A DNA stretch of 64,000 nucleotides, taken from NCBI RefSeq assembly GCF_001767295.1, contig NZ_CP014944.1, positions 1,364,001-1,428,000 on the forward strand. Direction: 5' to 3'. Made by a program: the position numbers and the translations under genes. The notes under the pieces were generated by a model. The model had not been told where the DNA came from. It saw nothing but the letters and a program-made list of their open reading frames with translations, and did no database searches. The DNA comes from Colwellia sp. PAMC 20917 (GTDB lineage Bacteria > Pseudomonadota > Gammaproteobacteria > Enterobacterales > Alteromonadaceae). Shown piece after piece: positions 4,590 to 60,820 of this stretch (the stretch's first letter is position 1; each line of letters opens with the position of its first letter).

Positions 4590-5483
4590 ATGTTTGAAAA
4601 AGTAGCAAGTGAAAGCCCAGTAGTAGAAAAAACACTCTCTCTAGCGCCAACCGATTTATTACGACAAGAAATAGATCAGGTCAGTTATATTTATAATATC
4701 ATTGTTGATTTTTTTGCTAATTATACCTTCCAATTGATTGGCGCCTTCATCATTTTCGCGCTCGGTTATATCGTCGCAGGCAAAATATCCAATGTTGTAT
4801 TGAGACTATGTACAAAACATAAACTTGATATCACCTTAAGTCAGTTTTTGGCCAGTACCACCAAAATGCTTATCGTCATCATGATAACCGTTATCTCGTT
4901 AAGTAAATTAGGCATTAGTGTTACACCATTTATAGCTGCCATTGGTGCCATTTCTCTTGGCGCAGGTTTAGCCTTACAAGGTTTATTAGCTAACTATGCA
5001 GCTGGTTTTAATATTATTATTATTCGCCCCTTCGTGGTTGGTGATACCATAACTGTGCGCGGTGTTACCGGCATAGTCAAAGAAGTTCTCCTGGCTTATA
5101 CCATAATTCATGACCAAGACGGTGTTGCGATTACCATACCGAACAAACATATTGTTGGCGAGATATTACACAACTCCAAACATGACTCATTATTAGAGTT
5201 AACAGTGGGTATCGCCTATAAAGAAGATCCATTACAAGTGGTTACTATTTTAGAAAAAACGATAGAGGAACTCAATATCGTTGGTGAATCGCGCGAACCA
5301 CAAATTGGTATTAGCGAATTTGCTGACAGCTCTATCAATATTTCGATACGTTTATGGACACCCACGGCTAATTATTATGATGCTAAATTTAAAGCCTACA
5401 AAGCAATTTACTTAGCCCTGAAAGAAAACAATATCGAGATCCCGTTCCCACAACGCGATGTTCATTTAATCTCACAAGCTTAA
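4590..5483 (+). CDS. MscS-family mechanosensitive ion channel
   Basis: A 297-residue small mechanosensitive channel of the MscS type, which opens under membrane tension to release solutes on hypo-osmotic shock. Three hydrophobic segments (about residues 47-67, 90-106, 111-145) precede the cytoplasmic beta and alpha/beta domains. The pore-lining helix is recognisable as SLGAGLALQGLLANYAAGF, followed by RPFVVGDTITV, the classic start of the beta domain. The length is close to E. coli MscS (286 residues). It is a single gene, with a terminator directly downstream. Confidence 0.93.
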   Translation: MFEKVASESPVVEKTLSLAPTDLLRQEIDQVSYIYNIIVDFFANYTFQLIGAFIIFALGYIVAGKISNVVLRLCTKHKLDITLSQFLASTTKMLIVIMITVISLSKLGISVTPFIAAIGAISLGAGLALQGLLANYAAGFNIIIIRPFVVGDTITVRGVTGIVKEVLLAYTIIHDQDGVAITIPNKHIVGEILHNSKHDSLLELTVGIAYKEDPLQVVTILEKTIEELNIVGESREPQIGISEFADSSINISIRLWTPTANYYDAKFKAYKAIYLALKENNIEIPFPQRDVHLISQA

Positions 5484-5530
5484 TGTAAGGGTTAGAAAGT
5501 CTGACTTTCAGCCATAAATTCAGCGTATAA

Positions 5531-5557
5531 AAAACCACTCATTGAGTGGTTTTTTTT
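5531..5557 (+). terminator. Rho-independent terminator after the MscS gene
   Basis: A six-base-pair stem (CCACTC 5535-5540, GAGTGG 5544-5549) with a three-base loop is flanked by an A tract and followed by eight T residues. It sits 47 bases after the stop codon of the channel gene. A nearly identical stem recurs downstream of eno at 25959-25975. Confidence 0.85.
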
Positions 5558-5695
5558 CGAGGTAAATGGTAAATCCGGATAATTTTCGAAACTATCACTC
5601 GTCAAATGATGATTGAGTCTTAATAGACTTTTTTGCCACAAACATGACATAGTGCAGAAATAAAAAAGCAACCATTAAAGACTGCTTAGTGCCCA

Positions 5696-5849
5696 GCCTG
5701 TGTGAAAACTATTTCAAACTTGAGTAATTGGTAAAAACCAACAGAAAAAAGCTCTTTAGATTAAATTTTGTATTATATTTGATGTAAAGCTACCTATTAA
5801 TTTACGTAGCGTTGCATAAAAGTTTTCCTCCGGGAGTTTTTACACAGGC
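5696..5849. mobile_element. Candidate miniature inverted-repeat element
   Basis: A 154-bp segment is bounded by inverted repeats of 15 bases with one mismatch (5696-5710 and 5835-5849, core CCTGTGTGAAAACT). The hexamer AGTGCC occurs just outside both ends (5688-5693 and 5850-5855), as expected of a target duplication, though two extra bases separate it from the left repeat. There is no coding frame inside. A related single end, GGCTGTGTAAAAACT, occurs at 8910-8924. The remainder of the gap up to the transposase at 6037 shows no other clear feature. Confidence 0.45.
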
Positions 5850-6036
5850 AGTGCCATTAGCGGACGGTAGGATGTCTGGGCTATTTGCTATTTTCTTTTG
5901 CTATTCTTTCTAGGTAGTTCTTTTTCCTTTCATCCAATCCATAGATTATCCCCCATTAAGCCACCCATAATAACTTGTTTGTTTTTTCAACAATAAACTA
6001 CACTTAGTTTACCCTCTTATAAGTGTGGTGATTGTT

Positions 6037-7017
6037 ATGCCTAAGCCTCGTTCACAACAAATCAGTTTATCTGATACGCCGTATTATCATATTTGTAGTC
6101 AAACCGTTCGAAAAGCCTTTTTATGTGGTGTTGATAAAGAAACCGGTGTCAGTTATGAGCACAGGCGTCATTGGATTGAACAGCGCATTTTTACATTATC
6201 TCAGGTCTTTGCTATTGATATTTGTGCTCACGCTGTTATGAATAATCACTTACATTTAGTCCTTCATGTTGATAGTGAACAAGTTAACAACTGGACGACG
6301 TTCGAGGTACTGTCCCGTTGGCATAAGTTGTTTAAAGGCACCCTGTTAACCCGTCAATATCAGCGACAGCAATCATTAACGACATTCGAAATAGAAATGG
6401 TTGAAGAAACAGCACAGGTCTATAAACAACGCTTAATCGATATCAGTTGGTTTATGCGGGCATTAAACGAGCCTATTGCTCGACAGGCCAATAAAGAAGA
6501 TAAATGCACTGGGCACTTTTGGGAAGGACGCTTTAAATCACAAGCCCTGCTCGATGAAGGGGCATTACTTGCTTGTATGGCTTATGTAGATTTAAATCCA
6601 GTGCGTGCGGGTATTGCCCCAACACCTGAGCAATCGAGTTTTACCAGTATTCAACTGCGTATCAGAGCCGCCATTATCGGAGAGCAACCGACAACGTTAT
6701 TACCTTTTACTGGCCATGAACAGCAAGCTAAAACCTCCGGTATCCGCTTTAGCTTAAAGGACTATTTAACCCTTGTAGATGAAACAGGTCGCGTAATAAG
6801 AGCAGACAAACGAGGCGCTATCGATAACAAAACCGCAAATATACTGTCAAGACTTCACATCAGCGATGAAAGTTGGCTCAAACTCACCTCAAACTTTGAA
6901 GGTATATTCACTGGCGCGGTCGGCACCGCAGAGCATTTGTGTGAATTTACTGAGCACGTGGGGTTAAAGCGAGCACACGGGAAAGCAAATGCCCAAGCTT
7001 GTTTGAATAGCGCGTAA
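6037..7017 (+). CDS. REP-associated tyrosine transposase (RAYT), Y1/HUH family
   Basis: A 326-residue single-strand transposase of the Y1 type. The HUH metal motif is HLH at residues 71-73 within MNNHLHLVLHVD. The candidate catalytic tyrosine is Tyr183 in MAYVDLNPVRAG, and GHFWEGRFKSQ just before it is typical of this group. The ATG at 6037 is chosen over an upstream GTG at 6025 because the family N-terminus is MPKPRSQQISLSDTPYYH. RAYTs are domesticated relatives of IS200/IS605 TnpA that act on REP hairpins carrying a GTAG tetranucleotide; such hairpins follow at 7162-7489. Confidence 0.9.
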   Translation: MPKPRSQQISLSDTPYYHICSQTVRKAFLCGVDKETGVSYEHRRHWIEQRIFTLSQVFAIDICAHAVMNNHLHLVLHVDSEQVNNWTTFEVLSRWHKLFKGTLLTRQYQRQQSLTTFEIEMVEETAQVYKQRLIDISWFMRALNEPIARQANKEDKCTGHFWEGRFKSQALLDEGALLACMAYVDLNPVRAGIAPTPEQSSFTSIQLRIRAAIIGEQPTTLLPFTGHEQQAKTSGIRFSLKDYLTLVDETGRVIRADKRGAIDNKTANILSRLHISDESWLKLTSNFEGIFTGAVGTAEHLCEFTEHVGLKRAHGKANAQACLNSA

Positions 7018-7161
7018 ACTTAACTACAAGCTAAGACAGCACTAAGACAGCAAGAAAAATAAGGCTACCTTGGGGGAGAAGTAAACTTGCCTGAAATTCA
7101 CTGATTTAATCAACATCTATAACAATCGATATACAAAAGCCTACAAGATGAAGTACATGCA

Positions 7162-7489
7162 TTGTTGTTGACCAATGGATAGCGTGTTTCAGAGTATTAT
7201 TATTGTGTAGAATTATCATGGGTGGCATAGTAACTTTTGTGTAGCATTATCATGGGTGGCATAGTAATTTTTGTTGTTGACCAATGGATAGCGTGTTTCA
7301 GAGTATTATTATTGTGTAGAATTATCATGGGTGGCATAGTAACTTTTGTGTAGCATTATCATGGGTGGCATAGTAATTTTTGTTGTTGGCCAATGGATAG
7401 CGTGTTTCAGAGTATTATCACTGTGTAGAATTATCATGGGTGGCATAGTAATTTCTGTGTAGAATTATCATGGGTGGCATAGTAATTTC
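7162..7489 (+). repeat. Tandem array of GTAG-tagged hairpins (candidate cognate REPs of the RAYT)
   Basis: Three tandem copies of a 109-bp unit start at 7162, 7271 and 7380, the last slightly diverged. Each unit contains two hairpins that start with GTGTAG at 7205/7239, 7314/7348 and 7423/7457, so the spacing alternates 34 and 75 bases. The hairpin is ATTATCATG, loop GGTGG, CATAGTAAT, with seven Watson-Crick pairs in nine. GTAG followed by an imperfect hairpin is the hallmark of REP elements moved by RAYT enzymes. The array begins 144 bases after the transposase stop codon. Confidence 0.8.
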
Positions 7490-7508
7490 TCTTCATTGAT
7501 AACTTGGA

Positions 7509-8525
7509 TCAAGTGTTTTTTGAAATCGATTTTATCTGATACATTTTTTTATCAGCTAAATTAATTAGCTCATCCAAATGAGTGCCATCTTCAGGAAAAA
7601 CAGAATAGCCGGCAGAAAAGGTTATATCTAAGTTACTTTTATTGGCTTTTAGAAGCGTCCATTCTGCATCAATCTGATCAATTAATTTATGAATACAGTA
7701 TTCATCATTAACGTTAGATAGTAATAAAACAAACTCATCTCCACCTACTCTTGCGACAAGATCTGAACGCCTCAATATGTTTTTCAGACATAGAGAAAAA
7801 GAGATTAACGTATTGTCTCCCACGTCATGTCCAAACTGGTCGTTGATAGGTTTAAAGTTGTCTAGATCAATAAAAACAATTGCAACGCTTTGATTATTAC
7901 GCCGTGCAAGTGCCAATAAAGTTTCAGCATTAACTTCAAGTCCACGCTTATTGTCTATTTTTGTGAGAGGGTCAAGCAACGATTTTTCACGATAACTAAT
8001 ACGATCTAACGTAATTGATACAATTTTCGATAAGGCTGAAAAATAAGCTATTTCATCAAGAGACATTGGCCTGACACCTTCAGTCGCAAAGGATCCAGTC
8101 CCTATTAAACCAAGACTTTCTCCATGCAAGAATAACTGGCAGTTTATAAGTGTTCGATAGTCCAATGCATTAACGATTTTTTTATCTGTAGTCGGATCAC
8201 TTCGAGCATCTTCAACATATACAGGAAAATCACTATTAAAGATTTTTTCCATCATTTTATCGTTAGTAATATCTATATACGGATATTTAGATTCAACTTC
8301 TTTCTGGCCTTTCCCAACTACAGAAATGAGTTTAGAAGTCTTTTTACAATTACCTTCAAATGCATACAACCACGTTAAACTGAAACCAAATAATAATTCC
8401 ATTTCAGTTTGTAATAATGAAATCATTGAGCCGACTGTATCGACTTTATATATATCTTTGGTTAAGTTTCCAAGTGAATGGATTAGTGTTGATGCTGTGT
8501 TGATGTGAATCGTCCTTATTAACAT
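7509..8525 (-). CDS. GAF-GGDEF diguanylate cyclase
   Basis: A 338-residue soluble protein with an N-terminal GAF-like sensor (about residues 25-175) and a C-terminal GGDEF domain (about 180-335). The active-site motif GGDEF is intact at residues 261-265, and an inhibitory I-site RRSD lies at 252-255, exactly five residues before it. This predicts synthesis of cyclic di-GMP with product feedback inhibition. DPLTKIDNKRG and FGHDVGD are further family motifs. No membrane segment is seen, so the signal sensed is probably cytoplasmic. The upstream ribosome-binding site is weak. Confidence 0.92.
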   Translation of the reverse strand: MLIRTIHINTASTLIHSLGNLTKDIYKVDTVGSMISLLQTEMELLFGFSLTWLYAFEGNCKKTSKLISVVGKGQKEVESKYPYIDITNDKMMEKIFNSDFPVYVEDARSDPTTDKKIVNALDYRTLINCQLFLHGESLGLIGTGSFATEGVRPMSLDEIAYFSALSKIVSITLDRISYREKSLLDPLTKIDNKRGLEVNAETLLALARRNNQSVAIVFIDLDNFKPINDQFGHDVGDNTLISFSLCLKNILRRSDLVARVGGDEFVLLLSNVNDEYCIHKLIDQIDAEWTLLKANKSNLDITFSAGYSVFPEDGTHLDELINLADKKMYQIKSISKNT

Positions 8526-8599
8526 TTATTCATAGTAATTTAACTTACTTCAATTAGAAAATGAATTACAAGCAATTATTGTTAAATTGTCCTAAATTA

Positions 8600-8924
8600 A
8601 CCAAGGCCTGACCTGATCAACTAAATTCAGACACCTAGTTAAGTTCGTTAAGCTACCTTTTTAAATTCTCTTTCTTTACATTCAACTATTGTTAACTTCT
8701 TCTTGTGACATGAGTTAACAATCAGCAAAATACGAAGCTAATATTCAATCCCTTTAGCTTAAAAAGCAGCCAAAATCAAAGCCCCTGTTGAGGTTTGGCA
8801 TTCCAAATGAAGAAGCAGTACGGATGTTCATTTATGCCACCAAGAATACTATGGAAGCAGAACATCAAGATGGGGGTAAAGTAATTAGCTAAGGCTCACT
8901 AATGCTAAAGGCTGTGTAAAAACT
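8600..8924. other. Degenerate intergenic stretch with possible insertion-sequence remnants
   Basis: This stretch has no intact gene. On the minus strand a short frame ends at 8648 with ...TIVECKEREFKKVA, followed by sequence resembling an insertion-sequence end (GACACCTAGTTAAGTT on the plus strand). On the plus strand a 46-residue fragment ending at 8892 (RFGIPNEEAVRMFIYATKN, then a stop) has no start codon. At 8910-8924, GGCTGTGTAAAAACT matches the end of the candidate element at 5696-5849. I read this as debris of past insertions, with low certainty about the families. Confidence 0.3.
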
Positions 8925-8941
8925 CTCAGAGTAAATTTTTT

Positions 8942-8994
8942 ATCAGCACCGTCGAGAAAAATCGGTACTGGTACTTTAGTCCCGAGTAGTTCAC
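8942..8994 (+). repeat. Hairpin repeat with conserved GTAGTTCAC flank (copy A)
   Basis: This element reads CAGCACCGTCGAGAAAA, then a hairpin stem built on CGG/CCG, then GTAGTTCAC. It is an inverted copy of the element at 12344-12390, and members with different stems occur at 21203-21242 and 25861-25923. The flanks are conserved while the stem differs. It abuts the broken end of the NRAMP fragment at 9031. Confidence 0.65.
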
Positions 8995-9030
8995 GTGAAG
9001 CTACAAGAATTAACAGGTGGGTTTTACCTG

Positions 9031-42029: not shown

Positions 42030-42960
42030 TTACTCCGTCATCCTGAACTTGTTTCAGGATCTGAACTTAGAACCAAAACGCAGATACTGAAATGAATTCA
42101 GCATGACGACAAGAGTACCAAACAGTCCCAAATACGACTTCGAAATTCGAAACATAACACTGCCCGCCTGAAACAACACCATCACCCTGAACACATCTCC
42201 GTCATCCTGAACACATCTCCGTCATCCTGAACTTGTTTCAGGATCTGTACTTAGAACCACAAAACGCAGATACTGAAATGAATTCAGCATGACGACAAGA
42301 GTACCAAACAGCCCCAAATACGACCTCGAAATTCGAAATACAACACTGCCCGCCTGACACAACACCATCATCCTGAATTCATTTCAGGATCTGTACTTAG
42401 AACCAAAAACACAGATACTGAAATAAATTCAGCATGACGACAAGAGCGTAAAGCGAACACCCTCATATTGAACACGACACCGTCACCCTGAACACGACAC
42501 CGTCAACCTGAACACACCTCCGTCATCCTGAACTTGTTTCAGGATCTGTACTTAGAACCAAAAAACAGATACTGAAATGAATTCAGCATGACGACAAGAG
42601 TACCAAACAGCCCCAAATACGACTTCGAAATTCGAAACACAACACTGCCCGCCTGAAACAACACCATCACCCTGAACACATCTCCGTCACCCTGAACTTG
42701 TTTCAGGATCTGTACTTAGAACCCAAAAAGCAGATACTGAAATGAATTCAGCATGACGACAAGAGCGTAAAGCGAACACCCTCATATTGAACACGACACC
42801 GTCAACCTGAACACACCTCCGTCATCCTGAACACAAAACCGTCATCCTGAACTTGTTTCAGGATCTGTACTTAGAACCACAAAACGCAGATACTGAAATA
42901 AATTCAGCATGACAAAAAAATAAATTCAGTATGACAACAAGAAAAATCAATTCAGCATGA
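42030..42960. repeat. Palindromic repeat cluster 1 (six inverted pairs)
   Basis: The basic unit is a short hairpin, GTCATCCTGAAC then TTGTTTCAGGATCT, followed after a spacer of about 23 bases by a diverged inverted copy (AGATACTGAAAT, then GAATTCAGCATGAC). Six such pairs occur, at about 42049, 42233, 42379, 42534, 42698 and 42853 (position of the first loop). Between them are half-units (CCGTCATCCTGAACACAT and similar) and longer shared segments such as GACTTCGAAATTCGAAA. Spacer type here: TGTACTTAGAACC. The cluster lies 3' of the GMC gene and upstream of oadG. Confidence 0.9.
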
Positions 42961-43045
42961 AGAAAATTGTGCTAATAATTATAATTCGGTCTATTTTTCA
43001 TCGTAAGTTTAGTTGTTTTCTTGCCTGACGCCAAAAATAAAACCT

Positions 43046-44656
43046 TTATGATTCATTCAATTTTTTAGCAAGTTTGTTCGCTTGTTTACAAACTAAGCCA
43101 TAAATAGAAAGTTGTGGGTTAGTACCAATAGAGGTAGGAAAAACAGAACCATCAAATACCCATAAATTATCTAAATAATGGTACTTACAATCGCTATCAA
43201 CTAAGCATAGTGCTTTGTTTTCACCCATCGCTAAGCCTCCCATAACGTGAGCGCTACCAATTAAGTTGTTACTGACTTTATGCTCAAGTTCATTAAAACC
43301 GGCTTTAAAAGACTCAAAGCTTTCAAACCATTGTCCGTGTTGATGTGCGGGGCGAACTCTTTTAGCACCAGCAGCAAACTGCACTTCAGCCATAGATAAA
43401 TAAGCGCGTTTAACCCCATCAAATAAATAATCATTCATCGGATAATCAACAATCGGGCTACCGTCATCAGAAAGCGTTATTTCAGCGCCTTCACTATCAG
43501 CGTCAAAGCCATCACGTAACAAGGCTAACATTGCATGGGTATTATTCAGCTTTGCCATATCCTCAACATGTTTAGTGCCATGGCCCATTAACATAATTGA
43601 GGACATAGCCGGGTGTAATGGCGGTACCTCTAACTTATAACTTAACGGCCCGGTAGCACCATTTTGCCATTGATAATGATCACTATAAATAGTTTGTGGC
43701 GCACCATAAAAAGGCGATATTTCTTTATCAAATTGAGCAAAGGAGAAAACAGTTGGATGCAAGAAGGTTCTTTTACCAATACGATTATTTGGATCTGGCG
43801 CTTTAGAGCGTAACATCAGTGCTGGGCCGTTAATCGCACCAGCTGCTAAAATAATATAAGGTGCTTTGGCGATGATCTTCTTCGCTGTCTTTTTCTTATT
43901 ATCATCGAGCGCAAAACATTCTACGGCTGTTATTTTTTTATTTTCAATAATTAACCGTTCGACACGAGTTTGATAAAGTAATGTGGCACCATGTTCAAGC
44001 GCATCTGGGATAGTGGTAACTAGCATCGATTGTTTTGCGTTGGTCGGGCACCCCATACCGCAGTAACCTAAGTTCCAGCAGCCTTTAACATTGCGCGGAA
44101 TAACTTTCCATGGAATATTGAGTTGCTCACAACCTTCTTTTAGCACCGCATTATTTTCATTCGCTCCACCTTGCCATGGCGTGACATTTAAGCGCTTTTC
44201 CATTTTTTCAAACCAAGGGACCATATCGCTGGTGCTACAGCCTTTTACCTGAAATGTTTTTTGCCAATAATCTAGGGTTGGTGACGGTGTTCTAAAGCTT
44301 GAGGTCCAGTTGATTACCGTAGTTCCGCCAACACAGCGCCCTTGCAAGATACCAATGCCACCATCTTTTGTGGCTCGCCCAGCATTTTCTTGATACAAAT
44401 CGGCATAGGCAGTTCGTTCATCCATTTTGAAGTCACGGGTCGACTTTAATGGTCCTTCTTCTATCATCAACACCTTTAGCCCTGCCTGCGCCAGTATTTC
44501 AGCACTTGTGCCACCACCAGCCCCAGTGCCAATAATAATGACATCGGCGCTAATAATATTGGTATCTAGCTGATTAGCATTGACCGTTTGCTTAGTGATC
44601 GCTTTATTTGCTGAGTACGGATCGCTAATACCACGAATTTCAGAGACTATTTTCAC
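43046..44656 (-). CDS. GMC-family oxidoreductase
   Basis: A 536-residue FAD-dependent dehydrogenase of the glucose-methanol-choline group. The dinucleotide-binding motif is VIIIGTGAGGGTSAEILAQAG at about residues 39-59 (split: VIIIGTGAGG, GTSAEILAQAG), GRCVGGTTVINWTSSF is the family signature, and the active-site histidine and asparagine lie in SAHVMGG and GTNPQLS at the C-terminus. The GTG start follows CAGGAA. It is coupled to an exported partner three bases upstream, as in membrane-bound sugar or alcohol dehydrogenases. The substrate is unknown. Confidence 0.9.
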   Translation of the reverse strand: MKIVSEIRGISDPYSANKAITKQTVNANQLDTNIISADVIIIGTGAGGGTSAEILAQAGLKVLMIEEGPLKSTRDFKMDERTAYADLYQENAGRATKDGGIGILQGRCVGGTTVINWTSSFRTPSPTLDYWQKTFQVKGCSTSDMVPWFEKMEKRLNVTPWQGGANENNAVLKEGCEQLNIPWKVIPRNVKGCWNLGYCGMGCPTNAKQSMLVTTIPDALEHGATLLYQTRVERLIIENKKITAVECFALDDNKKKTAKKIIAKAPYIILAAGAINGPALMLRSKAPDPNNRIGKRTFLHPTVFSFAQFDKEISPFYGAPQTIYSDHYQWQNGATGPLSYKLEVPPLHPAMSSIMLMGHGTKHVEDMAKLNNTHAMLALLRDGFDADSEGAEITLSDDGSPIVDYPMNDYLFDGVKRAYLSMAEVQFAAGAKRVRPAHQHGQWFESFESFKAGFNELEHKVSNNLIGSAHVMGGLAMGENKALCLVDSDCKYHYLDNLWVFDGSVFPTSIGTNPQLSIYGLVCKQANKLAKKLNES

Positions 44657-44659
44657 GTT

Positions 44660-45199
44660 TTATTCCTGCGATGGATATATTTTAGGAGGGCCTGGGTATC
44701 CCGCTTGTAAATAATTTTCTGACTGAGCATACCAACTCATAATAATCAGCTTGCCTAAAGAAGCGTAGCCAGTACGTTTTAATGAAAATAGGCTATTTTT
44801 CCAACCTTGTAGAAAGCTTTCAATTTCTTTCGTTGGGGTTGTTGTCCAATCACTGGTCGGTGCACCAACAAGATAACGAAATGTCGTCGATGACATTAAA
44901 TCAAACAGCTGCCGTAATTGCTTTTGGGAGTGTTCACCTAAAGTAATTATTTGTTGGTCAACAGCCATTAATAAGCGCATTCCAGCGTCTTCTACTAATA
45001 CACCGGGATAGTTACTCTTTAACATAACAGGGGCAAGCGCTAATAAAAAATCAGCATCAGATGCTTGAAGAAAATCAAACTTTTGTAGGTTTTTTGTACT
45101 TGGGTTGGCTAGTGCTATAGCAGACAAGCTACTGCCAACCAACAAGATGGCACTGCCAAGCAGACTAACTTTAAAGAATTCTCTACGACTTGTATTCAC
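44660..45199 (-). CDS. Tat-exported small subunit of a GMC-type dehydrogenase
   Basis: A 179-residue protein with a twin-arginine signal (NTSRREFFKVSLLGSAILL, residues 2-20) and a body resembling gluconate 2-dehydrogenase subunit 3. It probably folds in the cytoplasm with the GMC flavoprotein and carries it across the membrane as a passenger complex. GMC and subunit are three bases apart. The usual cytochrome c third subunit is not present here. Confidence 0.8.
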   Translation of the reverse strand: MNTSRREFFKVSLLGSAILLVGSSLSAIALANPSTKNLQKFDFLQASDADFLLALAPVMLKSNYPGVLVEDAGMRLLMAVDQQIITLGEHSQKQLRQLFDLMSSTTFRYLVGAPTSDWTTTPTKEIESFLQGWKNSLFSLKRTGYASLGKLIIMSWYAQSENYLQAGYPGPPKIYPSQE

Positions 45200-45320
45200 A
45201 CAGCCACCAAAATTATAAAAGATAATACCAACTGGTATTACCTGTTAATTAATCATCAAAAGATAAAGGATAATAGCGACAAAGTCTAGTGGCTTAAATT
45301 GAGTGCTGTTTTTGATGTGT

Positions 45321-46196
45321 TTATGTTAGCGTGACTTTCTGCCCGATCATCACGGTCTCATTCACTTGGACAACTTGCCTGTCAGTATTAGCTGCCTCTA
45401 AACAAATAAATTCTTTTTCAGCGCCAACATGAAGATCTTTCATTCGCTGAGCAACCTCAACGCCGGGGTTCCATAAAACCCACTGCTGACAATTTGTTGA
45501 CGATACTGTAAGCGTTCTTTGCCATTGTTTATCTTCGATTAAGCATTGTTGGTTAGTGTAATAAATACGATCGACTTCACCCAGACAATTTTCTAAAGCA
45601 GCATGCTGCTGTTCTTTACCCGTAACTTTGTCATCAAAGGGAAACTCAGCTAACGGCGCTACCGTAATATTTTCTGGTGCACTAACGGCAAAGTAACTGT
45701 GTAATGCCGCTGAATATTCAAACGCCTTGGATGATAAGTTACTGATAAATAATTTTTGTTCAAATTGATCAGAAAAAATCAACTGCTGCTTCAATTGGTA
45801 TTGATGAGGCCATAATGGGTGCTCATTTTCTCCAGACAAAGATAAAGTTACCGTAACCCTGTCTTTAGCAACGATCACGTCATCAAGTTGCCAATTTCGT
45901 TGACGAGCAAAACCATGATTACCCGCTTTTTCACCACTAGGTGCTTGATATGGACCAAACCATGGCCAACATAAAGGGATCCCACCTCTAATAGGCGTTC
46001 CCTGTTCAAAAATAACGTCATCACTTAGCCAAAATACCGGCTTTTGGTTAGCCGGTTGCCAAGCGAGAACATGACCACCATATAAACTTATTTTTGCGGT
46101 ACAAGTATTATGGATAATTTCTAGTGCATTTATCTGATCGGTAAGCGAAACTTGCTTAATTTGACCAAATTCATTTTCAGCAATAATTGATGACAT
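45321..46196 (-). CDS. D-hexose-6-phosphate mutarotase (YeaD-like)
   Basis: A 291-residue aldose-1-epimerase-fold protein that speeds interconversion of the anomers of glucose 6-phosphate. Family motifs are YGGHVLAWQPANQKPVFWLS, PIRGGIPLCWPWFGP, NHGFARQRNWQL with the catalytic histidine, ALHSYFAVS and WNPGVEVAQRMKDL. The length is typical. It stands alone downstream of repeat cluster 2. Confidence 0.93.
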   Translation of the reverse strand: MSSIIAENEFGQIKQVSLTDQINALEIIHNTCTAKISLYGGHVLAWQPANQKPVFWLSDDVIFEQGTPIRGGIPLCWPWFGPYQAPSGEKAGNHGFARQRNWQLDDVIVAKDRVTVTLSLSGENEHPLWPHQYQLKQQLIFSDQFEQKLFISNLSSKAFEYSAALHSYFAVSAPENITVAPLAEFPFDDKVTGKEQQHAALENCLGEVDRIYYTNQQCLIEDKQWQRTLTVSSTNCQQWVLWNPGVEVAQRMKDLHVGAEKEFICLEAANTDRQVVQVNETVMIGQKVTLT

Positions 46197-46254
46197 ACAA
46201 CCCCAAACGGTATTTAGAAAGTAGAGAACAAATCATTATAACGATAATACAAAT

Positions 46255-47160
46255 AACCGTCATCCTGAATACAAATAACCGTTATCCTGAATACAAATAA
46301 CCGTTATCCTGATACCATTTACGTCATTCTGATACAATCTCCGTCATCCTGATACCAACCCCGTCATCCTGATACCATCTCCGTCATCCTGATACCATCT
46401 CCGTCATCCTGAACTGGTTTCAGGATCTGTACTTACAACCACAAAGACCAGATACTGAAATAAATTCAGCATGACGACAAGAGTGTAAAACGAGCTCCGT
46501 TATCCTGAACATTACTCCGTCATCCTGAACATTACTCCGTCATCCTGATACCATCTCCGTCATCCTGATACCATCTCCGTCATCCTGAACTGGTTTCAGG
46601 ATCTGTACTTATAACCACAAAGACCAGATACTGAAATAAATTCAGCATGACGGCAAGAGTGTAAAGCGATCTACGTTATCCTGATACCATCTCCGTCATC
46701 CTGATACAATCTCCGTCATCCTGAACTGGTTTCAGGATCTGTACTTATAACCACAAAGACCAGATACTGAAATAAATTCAGCATGACGACAAGAGTGTAA
46801 AGCGAGCTCCGTTATCCTGAACACTACTCCGTCATCCTGAGTACTACTACGTCATCCTGATACCATCTCCGTCATCCTGAACTGGTTTCAGGATCTGTAC
46901 TTATAACCACAAAGACCAGATACTGAAATAAATTCAGCATGACGACAAGAGTGTAAAGCGAGCTCCGTTATCCTGAACACTACTCCGTCATCCTGAGTAC
47001 TACTACGTCATCCTGATACCATCTCCGTCATCCTGAACTGGTTTCAGGATCTGTACTTGCAACCACAAAGACCAGATACTGAAATAAATTCAGTATGACG
47101 ACAAGAGAAATAAATTCAGTATGACGACAAGAGAAATGAATTCAGCATGACGACAAGAGA
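46255..47160. repeat. Palindromic repeat cluster 2 (five inverted pairs with 20-bp half-unit tandems)
   Basis: Five inverted pairs have their first loop at 46415, 46591, 46727, 46883 and 47039, so the spacings are 176, 136, 156 and 156 bases, differing by exact multiples of 20. The intervening half-units are 20-base tandems (CTCCGTCATCCTGATACCAT). The loop variant here is ACTGGTTT and the spacer type is TACTTATAACCACAAAGACC. The cluster fills the gap between the amidohydrolase end (47273) and the mutarotase start (46196). Confidence 0.92.
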
Positions 47161-47199
47161 AATAAACTCTGCATCACGGCAAAAATGCTAAACAACAAA

Positions 47200-49986: not shown

Positions 49987-50179
49987 TTAATGCTTCCTGT
50001 GCGGATTATTATTTTGGGTTTTAATAGGCAACAATAAAATGATTTGAACAATACAGCAAGTGAAGCTTAGCCAATTACGTTCAATGGTTATACATTCAAG
50101 GTGAATGGAGAAAGAAGCAAATAAATAAGTGTAATTCCGAGACTAAAAGCACATAGTAAATTTGCCTTCTGGTTTTACT

Positions 50180-51045
50180 CACTCCCATGTCGTCATACTG
50201 AATTTATTTCAGTATCTGGTCTTTGTTCACTCCCATGCCGTCATGCTGAATTTATTTCAGTATCTGGTTTTTGTAGAGCAAGTACAGATCCTGAAACGAG
50301 TTCAGGATGACGGAAAGTCGTTTGTTTATTACTCGTGTTTTTTCACTCCCATGCCGTCATGCTGAATTATTTCAGTATCTGGTTTTTGTAGAGCAAGTAC
50401 AGATCCTGAAACGAGTTCAGGATGACGGAAAGTAGTTTGTTTATCATTCGCATTTTCTCACACCCATGCCGTCATACTGAATTTATTTCAGTATCTGGTT
50501 TTTGTAGATCAAGTACAGATCCTGAAACCAGTTCAGGATGACGGAAAGTGGTTTGTTTATTACTCGCATTTTCTCACTCCCATACCGTCATGCTGAATTT
50601 ATTTCAGTATCTGGTCTTTGTTAACTCCCATGCCGTCATGCTGAATTTATTTCAGTATCTGGTTTTTGTTCACTCTCGTGCTGTCATGCTGAACTCTTTT
50701 CAGTATCTGGTCTTTGTAGAGCAAGTTCAAGATGACGGAGAGTGGTTGGTTTATGACTCGCATTTTCTCACTCCCATGCCGTCATGCTGAATTTATTTCA
50801 GTATCTGGTTTTTGTAGAGCAAGTACAGATCCTGCAACGAGTTCAGGATGACGGAGAGTGGTTTGTTTATTATTCGCATTTTCTCACTCTCATGTCGTCA
50901 TACTGAATTTATTTCAGTATCTGGTCTTTGTTCACTCCCGTGCCGTCATGCTGAATTTATTTCAGTATCTGGTCTTTGTAGAGCAAGTACAGATCCTGAA
51001 ACGAGTTCAGGATGACGGTGCTCGTTCAGGATGACAGAGTATTTT
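50180..51045. repeat. Palindromic repeat cluster 3 (opposite orientation)
   Basis: The same paired unit occurs inverted relative to the other clusters: GTCATGCTGAATTTATTTC, then AGTATCTGG, a spacer TTTTTGTAGAGCAAGTAC, and AGATCCTGAAACGAG with TTCAGGATGACGG. Second arms lie at 50300, 50415, 50531, 50841 and 51005, with a degenerate one near 50725; the closest spacing is 115-116 bases. Single first arms are also inserted in tandem. Open frames through it (50162-50365, 50548-50790) only translate the repeat. It lies upstream of the amidohydrolase pair and past the DUF1289 gene end. Confidence 0.9.
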
Positions 51046-54829: not shown

Positions 54830-55490
54830 ATACCAACACCGTTATTCTGGGGGATAAACGTCATCCGTTGGGATAACAGTCATCCTGATACCATCACCGT
54901 CATCCTGAACACAACACCGTCATCCTGAACTTGTTTCAGGATCTGTACTTACAACAACAAAGACCAGATACTGAAATAAATTCAGCATGACGACAAGAGT
55001 GCCTCTACAAAAAGTGGCCGTTACCGTCATCCTGAAGCAGTATACCGTTATCCTGAACTAACATACCGTCATCCTCAACACTACTCCGTCATCCTGAACT
55101 TGTTTCAGGATCTGTACTTACAACAACAAAGACCAGATACTGAAATAAATTCAGCATGACGACAAAAGGACTAAACGATTAACGACTCCCTGATACCAAA
55201 ACAGTCACCCTAAAGAACAAACATCATCCTGCGGGATAACCGTCATCCTCAACACTACTCCGTCATCCTGAACTTGTTTCAGGATCCGTACTTACAACAA
55301 CAAAGACCAGATACTGAAATAAATTCAGCATGACGACAGAAGGACTAAACGATTAACGACTCTCTGATACCAACACCATCATCCTGTGGGATAAGAACAC
55401 TACTCCGTCATCCTGAACTTGTTTCAGGATCTGTACTTGTAACAGCAAAGACCAGATACTGAAATAAATTCAGCATGACGACAAAAGTGC
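54830..55490. repeat. Palindromic repeat cluster 4 (four inverted pairs)
   Basis: Four inverted pairs have their first loop at 54931, 55100, 55274 and 55419, all with the spacer type TACTTACAACAACAAAGACC. They are mixed with half-units and short variants such as CATCCTGCGGGATAA. The cluster fills the gap between galU and the start of pgi, so any pgi promoter must lie within or just after it. Confidence 0.9.
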
Positions 55491-55528: not shown

Positions 55529-56428
55529 TTACTTCATCAAGTCGGTTAAATATGCTCTGAAATCATCAGCTAATTCTGGGTGGCGTAAACCGTATTCAAC
55601 GTTCGCTTTCATGTAGCCTAGTTTTGAACCACAGTCATGTGACTTGCCTGTCATATGGAAAGCTTCAACCGTTTCTTTTTCCATTAACATCGCAATAGCG
55701 TCAGTTAATTGAATTTCATCACCAGCACCTGGAGGGGTTAACTTTAATAAATCCCAAATTTTCTCAGAAAGGACATAGCGACCAACAACGGCTAAGTTTG
55801 ATGGCGCGTCTTCCATCGCTGGTTTTTCAACAATAGCCGTCATAGTTTTTGACTCACCGGGGGCAAGCTCAACACCACCACAATCAACCACACCATAACT
55901 ACTTACTTGCTCCATTGGCACAGGTTCAACCATAATCTGGCTGTAGCCACCAACTTCGTTATAACGCGTTAACATCGCTGCTAAATTTTCGGTTTTCAAA
56001 TCTGCTGTAGCATCATCTAAAATAACATCAGGAAGTACCACAACAAAAGGTTCGTTACCAATAATAGGACGGGCCTTCATTACAGCATGACCCAAGCCTT
56101 TCGCTTCACCTTGTCGAACATGCAGTATAGTAACGTCTTTCGGGCAAATCGCTTGAATTTCATCTAACAACTGTCGTTTAACACGGTTTTCAAGGGTAGT
56201 TTCAAGCTCAAAAGATTTATCAAAGTGGTTTTCAATAGCATTTTTTGAAGAGTGCGTTACTAGCACAATTTCTTTAATACCTGCTGCAACACATTCATTA
56301 ACAATATATTGGATCATCGGCTTATCGACGATAGGAAGCATTTCTTTTGGTATAGCTTTTGTCGCTGGCAACATACGTGTACCTAACCCAGCAACTGGAA
56401 TTACCGCTTTCGTTATTTTATTATTCAT
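55529..56428 (-). CDS. galU: UTP-glucose-1-phosphate uridylyltransferase
   Basis: A 299-residue enzyme that makes UDP-glucose from UTP and glucose 1-phosphate. The active-site motif is [19 protein letters not shown], followed by [15 protein letters not shown]; later motifs are [21 protein letters not shown] and [17 protein letters not shown]. The ATG at 56428 has TAAGGATG at the right distance; an ATG at 56434 directly abuts AAGG and is less likely. It closes the rhamnose gene block and supplies precursor for surface sugars. Confidence 0.96.
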
Positions 56429-59224: not shown

Positions 59225-60820
59225 CAAGTATCCCATCATTCTGAAGCAGCATACCATCATCCTGAACTTGTTTCAGGAACTCGTACTTAAACAGCAAAAC
59301 CAGATACTGAAATAAATTCAGCATGACGACAAAAGTGCCTATACAGAAAGTGGCAGCTTCCCCCCATTCCGAAGGAGCATACCGTCATCCTGAACTTGTT
59401 TCAGGATCTCGTTCTTAAACAGCAAAACCAGATACTGAAATAAATTCAGCATGACAACAAAAGTGCCTCTACAAAAAGTGTCCGTTACCATCACTCTGAA
59501 GCAGCATACCGTCATTCGGACGCAACATACCGTCATACTGAACTTGTTTCAGGATCTCGTTATTAAACATCAAAACTAGATACTGAAATAAATTCAGCAT
59601 GACGGCAAGAGTGCCTCTACAAAAAGTAGCAGTTTCCCTCATTCCGAAGGAGCATCCCATCATCCTGAATGGACATACCGTCATCCTGAACACGACACCG
59701 TCATCCTGAACTTGTTTCAGGATCTCGTTCTTAAACAGCAAAGACCAGATACTGAAATAAATTCAGCATGACGACAAAAGTGCCACTACAGAAAGTGGCC
59801 GTTACCGTCACTCTGAAGCAGCATACTGTCATACTGAAGGAGTATACCGTCATTCTGAAGCAGTATACCGTCATTCCGACGCAACATACCGTCATCCTGA
59901 ACTTGTTTCAGGATCTCGTTCTTAAACAGCAAAGACCAGATACTGAAATAAATTCAGCATGACGACAAAAGTGCCACTACAGAAAGTGGCCGTTACCGTC
60001 ACTCTGAAGCAGCATACCGTCATTCCTGAAGCAGCATACCGTCATACTGAAGGAGTATACCGTCATTCCGACGCAATATACCGTCATCCTGAACTTGTTT
60101 CAGGATCTCGTACTTAAACAGCAAAGACCAGATACTGAAATAAATTCAGTATGACGACAAAAGTGCCTCTAAAAAGTAGCAGTTTCTCTCATTCCGAAGG
60201 AGCATCCCATCATCCTGAATGGACATACCGTCATCCTGAACACGACACCGTCATCCTGAACTTGTTTCAGGATCTCGTTCTTAAACAGCAAAACCAGATA
60301 CTGAAATAAATTCAGCATGACAACAAAAGTGCCTCTACAAAAAGTGTCCGTTACCATCACTCTGAAGCAGCATACCGTCATTCGGACGCAACATACCGTC
60401 ATACTGAAGGAGTATACCGTCATTCTGAAGCAGTATACCGTCATTCGGACGCAACATACCGTCATCCTGAACTTGTTTCAGGACCTCGTATTTAAACAGC
60501 AAAGACCAGATACTGAAATAAATTCAGCATGACGACAAAAGTGCCTCTACAAAAAGTGGCAGTTACCGTCATTCCTGAGGAGCATACCGTCATCCTGAAG
60601 CAGTATACCGTCATCCTGAACTTGTTTCAGGATCTCGTTCTTAAACAGCAAAGACCAGATACTGAAATAAATTCAGCATGACGACAAAAGTGCCACTACA
60701 GAAAGTGGCCGTTACCGTCATTCCTGAGGAGCATACCGTCATCCTGAACTTGTTTCAGGATCTCGTTCTTAAACAGCAAAGACCAGATACTGAAATAAAT
60801 TCAGTATGACGGCATAAGGC
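59225..60820. repeat. Palindromic repeat cluster 5 (ten inverted pairs)
   Basis: The longest cluster: ten inverted pairs with first loops at 59268, 59396, 59544, 59712, 59903, 60095, 60262, 60473, 60622 and 60750. Spacings are 128, 148, 168, 191, 192, 167, 211, 149 and 128, close to 128 plus multiples of 20-21. The spacer type is CTCGTTCTTAAACAGCAAAG, shared across the cluster. Longer segments are duplicated inside it (around 59630-59735 and 60175-60285). It splits rfbA from rfbC; frames through it translate only repeats. Confidence 0.92.

Follow-up and report, generated by a model that had tools for sequence, protein, structure and literature searches.

In the genome of Colwellia sp. PAMC 20917, a gene for a tyrosine transposase is followed by an orderly tandem array of six short repeats, and the locus raises the question of what these repeats are and how the array came about. 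The original prediction, made from the sequence alone, read them as the cognate REP hairpins of a RAYT enzyme. We analysed the stretch of 64,000 nt that contains the locus (the window) together with the rest of the host genome and with related copies from other genomes.

The window copy of the element extends from about 5945 to 7490 (1.55 kb). According to sequence, alignment and predicted structure, its gene is that of a Y1/HUH transposase and occupies positions 6037-7017 on the plus strand, encoding 326 aa from an ATG; an alternative GTG upstream, at 6025, would add 4 aa. The gene is followed on the same strand by a right subterminal region (7018-7161), alike in the eight near-identical copies of the host genome, and then, 144 nt past the stop codon as had been described, by the array (7162-7488, plus strand), which self-comparison and a tandem repeat search resolve into three right-end units of 109 bp with 100%, 100% and 94% identity to the reference. 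The six GTGTAG-led terminal repeats that it carries are also present as described; they read GTGTAG[A/C]ATTATCATGGGTGGCATAGTAA, their starts are spaced by 34, 75, 34, 75 and 34 nt, and a pattern search places their GGGTGGC cores, all on the plus strand, at 7220-7226, 7254-7260, 7329-7335, 7363-7369, 7438-7444 and 7472-7478. From the breakpoint tally given below, the outer joining point of the sixth repeat would lie at about 7488-7491. On the other side of the gene, the left terminal repeat is found at 5956-5973 on the minus strand, with its GGGTGGC core at 5960-5966. This inverted relative had been noticed near 5960 and called weak; it is indeed present, but it is closer than was thought, since TTATTATGGGTGGC at 5960-5973 (minus strand) fits exactly the common 14-mer TTATYATGGGTGGC. 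Allowing up to two mismatches, the 14-mer has 8 matches in the window against 0.8 expected, seven at the element and an unrelated one at 55571. Several alignments to genomes of the same genus start at window positions 5955-5957, by the left terminal repeat. Outside it, comparison of the genome copies delimits a left tip, ATTATCCCCCA (5945-5955), which also occurs in the copy at 1252998, whose flank beyond it differs, while other copies have other tips. A search for known RNA families over 5500-9000 gave no match at E <= 1.

The enzyme is an intact HUH/Y1 transposase, as proposed: the two histidines of its HLH motif at residues 71-73 and Tyr183 are invariant across 43 aligned sequences, the window protein among them. 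The profiles of this group are matched below their cut-offs, NCBIfam REP_Tyr_transpos with 42.1 bits (cut-off 80) and Pfam Y1_Tnp with 17.7 bits (cut-off 23), and Y1_Tnp matches at E <= 0.01 in 32 of the 43 aligned relatives. Sequence searches of the PDB returned nothing relevant (one gave four tRNA synthetase matches at E 0.15-0.17, another none). A structure search with the predicted model (mean pLDDT 82) gave as top match 4er8, a REP-associated tyrosine transposase (RAYT) on its REP hairpin, with E 3.7e-5; this is the nearest solved structure, and the ISDra2 and IS608 structures follow with E above 0.02. The model places helices at residues 80-132 between a strand (71-78) and a helix (136-154), and H73 is separated from Y183 by 110 residues. 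FWEGRF and YVDLNP motifs are present in all 43 aligned sequences. The tyrosine motif is Y---NP and not Y---Q in the window protein and its aligned relatives. The HuH motif is NHLH in 29 sequences, including the window protein, NHTH in 10, NHIH in two, and NHVH and NHSH in one each. Of 246 genomes sampled from the GTDB family of the host, 106 have homologues at E <= 1e-70.

The fold, the GTGTAG ahead of all six units and the inverted copy upstream are what speaks for the array being a set of REPs served by a RAYT, that is, a REPtron. The distribution of the repeats in the host genome (4.68 Mb, single contig) speaks against it. The transposase gene is itself multicopy: eight copies at seven sites have 96-100% protein identity, two more have 79% and another two 54%, which makes 12 full-length genes, and several fragments are present besides. 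A genome-wide search for the unit, with a 27-base pattern and up to 3 mismatches, found 25 matches, every one on the plus strand, against 0 for the reversed control; 24 of them lie at the right ends of the eight near-identical copies, and the last is some 1.6 kb beyond the copy at 346874. The REPs dispersed through the genome that were expected of the array are thus not found. At looser settings 4 of 35 unit matches are away from the gene, two of these with 3 mismatches; a unit without the tag, at 1254211, appears only at these settings. Counted by eye and in genome order, the eight copies carry 2, 1, 3, 3, 3, 4, 3 and 6 units. Beyond the copy at 346874, at 4955-5625 of locus L075, there are also repeats with a GGGTGTCTTGATAA end, with 98 nt duplicated at 95%, which are perhaps a remnant or a non-autonomous relative.

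The six hairpins were not borne out either: shuffled DNA folds as well as the units do. Folded as single-stranded DNA, the three right units reach -0.3, -0.3 and -1.4 kcal/mol, the upstream unit 0, and the six stretches 0 to -1.4; the best fold (-1.4) has a z of -0.79 relative to dinucleotide shuffles, 38 of 200 of which are at least as good. Arm pairing was compared across the family, over 88 right ends and 98 left ends. An arm pairs no better with its cognate arm than with one taken from another copy (z -1.7 right, -0.2 left); it does pair slightly better with its cognate arm than with a letter-shuffled 3' arm, at -1.13 against -0.86 +/- 0.085 for right arms and -1.55 against -1.34 +/- 0.088 for left arms, a weak point in favour of REPs. 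A hairpin stabilised by the protein would be compatible with these values. The tag is carried, in the form GT[AG]G, by 6 of 6 window units and by 16 of the 25 units of the genome, but it is rare in the family: GTAG stands ahead of the first exact core at 10 of 99 ends on the right and at 1 of 114 on the left, and GT[AG]G at 11 of 99 and 1 of 114. Of the claim that these are the cognate REPs of the enzyme there remains that the repeats belong to the transposase and that its nearest structure is a RAYT on a REP hairpin; their identity as REPs is not supported, and we regard a REPtron as highly improbable.

What the ends are instead emerges from comparison across the family. We assembled 157 distinct copies from the best-scoring matches to the window protein (in one search the best 80 of at least 594), a sample that leans to close relatives because it was chosen in this way; the set excludes copies with no recognisable start, those with less than 150 nt of left or 350 nt of right flank, and exact duplicates. 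In Colwellia, Shewanella and Marinomonas, the closer pairs of copies from one genome are alike up to about 77-90 nt ahead of the gene and 200-270 nt behind it; more diverged pairs lose their similarity sooner on the right. Near these limits lies a core, GGGTG[GT]C. On the right it is found at a median of 207 nt past the stop codon (exact in 95, with one mismatch in 42, absent in 20, n=157), and on the left, inverted, at a median of 76 nt ahead of the start (exact in 109, with one mismatch in 19, absent in 29, n=157). The opposite-strand control, which applies to exact cores and leaves the one-mismatch hits without a control, has the heptamer in 3 of 157 right and 0 of 157 left arms. The two ends of a copy agree with each other: the sixth base of the core, G or T, is equal at left and right in 77 of 81 copies, where shuffling gives 45 +/- 4, and similarity exceeds that of shuffled pairs in the 12 nt inside the core (z 5.4) and in the 12 nt outside it (z 4.4), statistics in which kinship among copies is still included. 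Outside the core there is a weak consensus common to both ends, with T at +5 in 100/124 and 107/124. This comparison supports reading the ends as terminal inverted repeats, short and built around a GGGTG[GT]C core, and not as REP hairpins.

That the array arose by tandem duplication, as originally suggested, is confirmed, and the same process can be followed throughout the family. Exact tandem duplications with a unit of 8-399 nt were counted in the arms of the 157 copies. Of the 164 found, 100 are at the tips, with an outer end 0-25 nt past the core; 48 lie at other places outside the gene, 10 in the stretch from gene to core, and 6 belong to arms that have no core. The density is 7.7 per kb at the tips, compared with 0.16 per kb at those other places, 0.23 per kb from gene to core and 0 in 157 kb of gene ends; the tips are thus about 47 times denser than other DNA outside the gene. 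The 100 tip duplications come from 76 of 276 arms and cannot be counted as independent. They have a variable inner start, often GGGTG/GC (the slash marks the break), and a fixed end about 9-15 nt outside the core. In fact, the outer breakpoint can be placed at +9 to +15 past the core in 92 of the 100, in a zone common to both ends and to several genera, and the inner one ranges between a point just outside the core and one about 350 nt inside it, with a hotspot at -1 that is possible in 27 of 100 (next position 11) and at which the duplicated unit therefore begins with GC. Duplications at left and right ends are mirror images. In the window, the 34-bp units end 10-12 nt past the core and the 109-bp units 10-19 nt past it, the ranges reflecting alignment ambiguity. 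The six-repeat array is best read as the right end of the element after repeated tandem duplications in place, and the outer point would correspond to the site of cutting or joining by the transposase. The hotspot at -1 may reflect a further cut, or a staggered cut whose other strand is broken there.

Units could also be multiplied by ordinary replication slippage or by homologous recombination among repeats, processes in which the transposase would take no part, and once two units are present unequal crossing-over can alter their number. Against this speak the single outer breakpoint zone at both ends in several genera and the concentration of duplications at the tips; a control of nine IS4 loci from genome G129 has 3 events in 31.4 kb. 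Moreover, microhomology is not in excess: it is zero in 55 of the 100 tip duplications, which is the chance level (0.526 expected from base composition). A chimeric unit, the second right-end unit of locus L078, is a trace of recombination between copies, its first 120 nt being 98% identical to the copy at 687032 and 80% to the neighbour, and its last 150 nt 100% to the neighbour. On balance we find it unlikely that such processes explain the arrays by themselves.

The array might instead be kept because having several repeats strengthens binding by the transposase or controls the gene, while the duplications as such are random. At least two right cores within 700 nt are found in 69 of the 157 copies, as retention would have it, but one core is found in as many and none in 19, and in a first-pass tally (135 copies, 67 events) 39 of the 67 duplicated units were of 15 nt or less, too short for a core and tip; selective retention appears very unlikely as the explanation.

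Copies at corresponding sites show that the ends change without moving. When all flanks were compared with one another, seven pairs of copies proved alike on both sides, and four of these pairs were aligned. Tip units differ in three of these, two comparing the host genome with a congener (L083/L094 and L084/L097) and one comparing strains of Pseudoalteromonas shioyasakiensis (L270/L271); in the fourth (L128/L228) both copies have one unit per side. Since orthologous copies differ in their tip units, the units turn over in place. In genome G058, four copies with bodies 98-99.6% identical have different tips, each repeated within the units of its own site. In the host genome the right tips are conserved, and the left tips fall into three types common to different sites, being shared by the copies at 1252998 and 1370037 and by those at 586701 and 689110; tips may therefore also travel. 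The idea that tips are purely target-derived DNA, which G058 suggested, was dropped on account of these shared left tips.

Extra units could also be separate truncated insertions at the tip of an older copy, a view that gains from partial copies of greater length (as much as about 930 bp) that adjoin an element tip. Among the eight larger partial copies, five are closest to the adjoining full copy (97 v 94, 97 v 85, 96 v 95, 94 v 92 and 99 v 96% for the neighbour and the other copy), with one tie, one closer to a copy elsewhere and one chimeric. The last two are what independent insertion would give, whereas the five and the locus-specific tips repeated inside units are not, and we judge this origin quite unlikely. 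Because not all partial copies match their neighbour and one is chimeric, recombination between copies also acts.

The reading that we consider likely is that of a multicopy IS-like element, present at unrelated sites, whose ends have undergone repeated breakage and rejoining at a fixed point; its own transposase is probably responsible. The transposase would nick the tip at the fixed outer point, and the free 3' end would then be ligated, with no need of homology, to a break lying deeper in the end on a sister strand; alternatively, a staggered cut would be filled in and then rejoined. Either way the end would gain one more copy of itself. In the reciprocal product the tip would be lost, and this could account for the differing tips among near-identical copies. 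A more specific version is possible and is put forward tentatively: the end repeats may be scars of a Y1 enzyme that acts on hairpin-free repeats and cuts at two fixed places per end, 9-15 nt outside the core and at GGGTG/GC, homology-free rejoining both growing the ends and swapping the tip. If true, this would be a self-renewing transposon end. The breakpoint pattern predicts the cleavage positions to within a few nucleotides.

Insertion sites were examined for traces of transposition. No target duplication of 3 nt or more was found at any fixed offset in 124 copies, offsets with few matches being unlisted; the largest excess of a 2-mer at a fixed offset was 26 of 124, against 16.6 expected. 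A clean empty site was sought along several lines, and none was found. The right flank of the window copy matched over less than 70 nt only in five genomes of the same genus; the site in strain CF6-2 is too diverged; Pseudoalteromonas chromids and, separately, the genus relatives of G058 gave no empty site; and an IS4 interrupted by copy L295 did not resume within 0.9 kb beyond it. In a copy from Pseudoalteromonas sp. NC201, the adjoining 40 nt or so (about 3923-3962 of L269) recur in many Vibrio plasmids and resemble an integron attC site.

The eight near-identical host copies (161714-1371014) all lie on the plus strand and in one replichore; dnaA is at 2425336, where the GC skew changes sign. 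Across genomes, no overall replication-strand bias was seen. Orientation was counted over 17 genomes from 125 matches, minus 17 that were partial and weaker than E 1e-80, plus the 12 own copies; with the terminus assumed to be opposite dnaA, 10 of the 120 copies, near origin or terminus, were set aside, and 51 of the remaining 110 are co-directional and 59 counter-directional with replication. Orientation does vary between genomes beyond chance (simulated p 0.0002 for 120 copies, which are not independent).

Among known systems, the enzyme appears closest to subclass 2.3 of the TnpAY1 proteins, of which PMC6006769 was the only treatment among the literature matches listed. As far as the excerpted text of that study goes, the subclass (224 proteins in 2018) shares with the window protein a length of about 325 residues, 110 residues from HuH to Tyr, the FWE and YVDLNP motifs, an insert of about 55 aa after strand 3, a home in Alteromonadales and several copies per genome. 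The HuH consensus is NHYH there and NHLH here, NHYH being present in 0 of 43 aligned sequences, and we therefore write "closest to" rather than member of the subclass; mean copy identity is 74.8% there, compared with 96-100% within one genome here. In the same excerpts the subclass has no REP-like flanks by automatic or manual searches (Quentin et al. 2018, PMC6006769). Candidate ends are now proposed for it, so that binding and cleavage become directly testable.

With REPtrons the element shares the Y1 fold, inverted repeats flanking the gene and, in the window, GTAG before the right repeats (PMC2817692 and PMC8266576, in part); it differs in having no stable hairpin, no dispersed repeats and a multicopy gene; for RAYT genes, Nunvar 2010 (PMC2817692) reports no multiple copies. 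To the RAYTs, described as domesticated, the element adds a relative that is multicopy and apparently mobile. TIRtrons, according to the portions seen of Di Nocera 2013 (PMC3733652), likewise have a RAYT-like gene (TIRYT) between terminal inverted repeats that are not REPs, but the motif common to some of their TIRs is GGGGWSAS, compared with GGGTG[GT]C here. The same portions describe REP clusters reiterated in tandem with variable-length flanking DNA, and no tip-anchored duplications of TIRtrons were seen in them. More generally, no description of tip-anchored duplications or of self-renewing ends of HUH transposons was found among the matches listed, subscription papers lying mostly outside the search. 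The IS200/IS605 elements (IS608, ISDra2) resemble ours in the HUH/Y1 fold, in being multicopy and in that no target duplication was found here. To our knowledge, the IS200/IS605 family makes none. Unlike them, our element has Y---NP in place of Y---Q, extra domains and no stable subterminal hairpin. As to the lagging-strand orientation bias of that family, the sample shows no overall bias, with the differences between genomes given above.

Other repeats of the window belong to different families. About 180 nt to the left of the element (5675-5860) have many matches in four of five genomes of the same genus and at least one in the fifth, and a part of them recurs inverted at 8899-8943, which makes them another dispersed repeat family. 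Large tandem arrays at 42033-47182, 50168-50979, 54879-55099 and 59233-60748 consist of CCGTCATCCTGAA / TTCAGGATGACGG-like units, again of a different repeat family.
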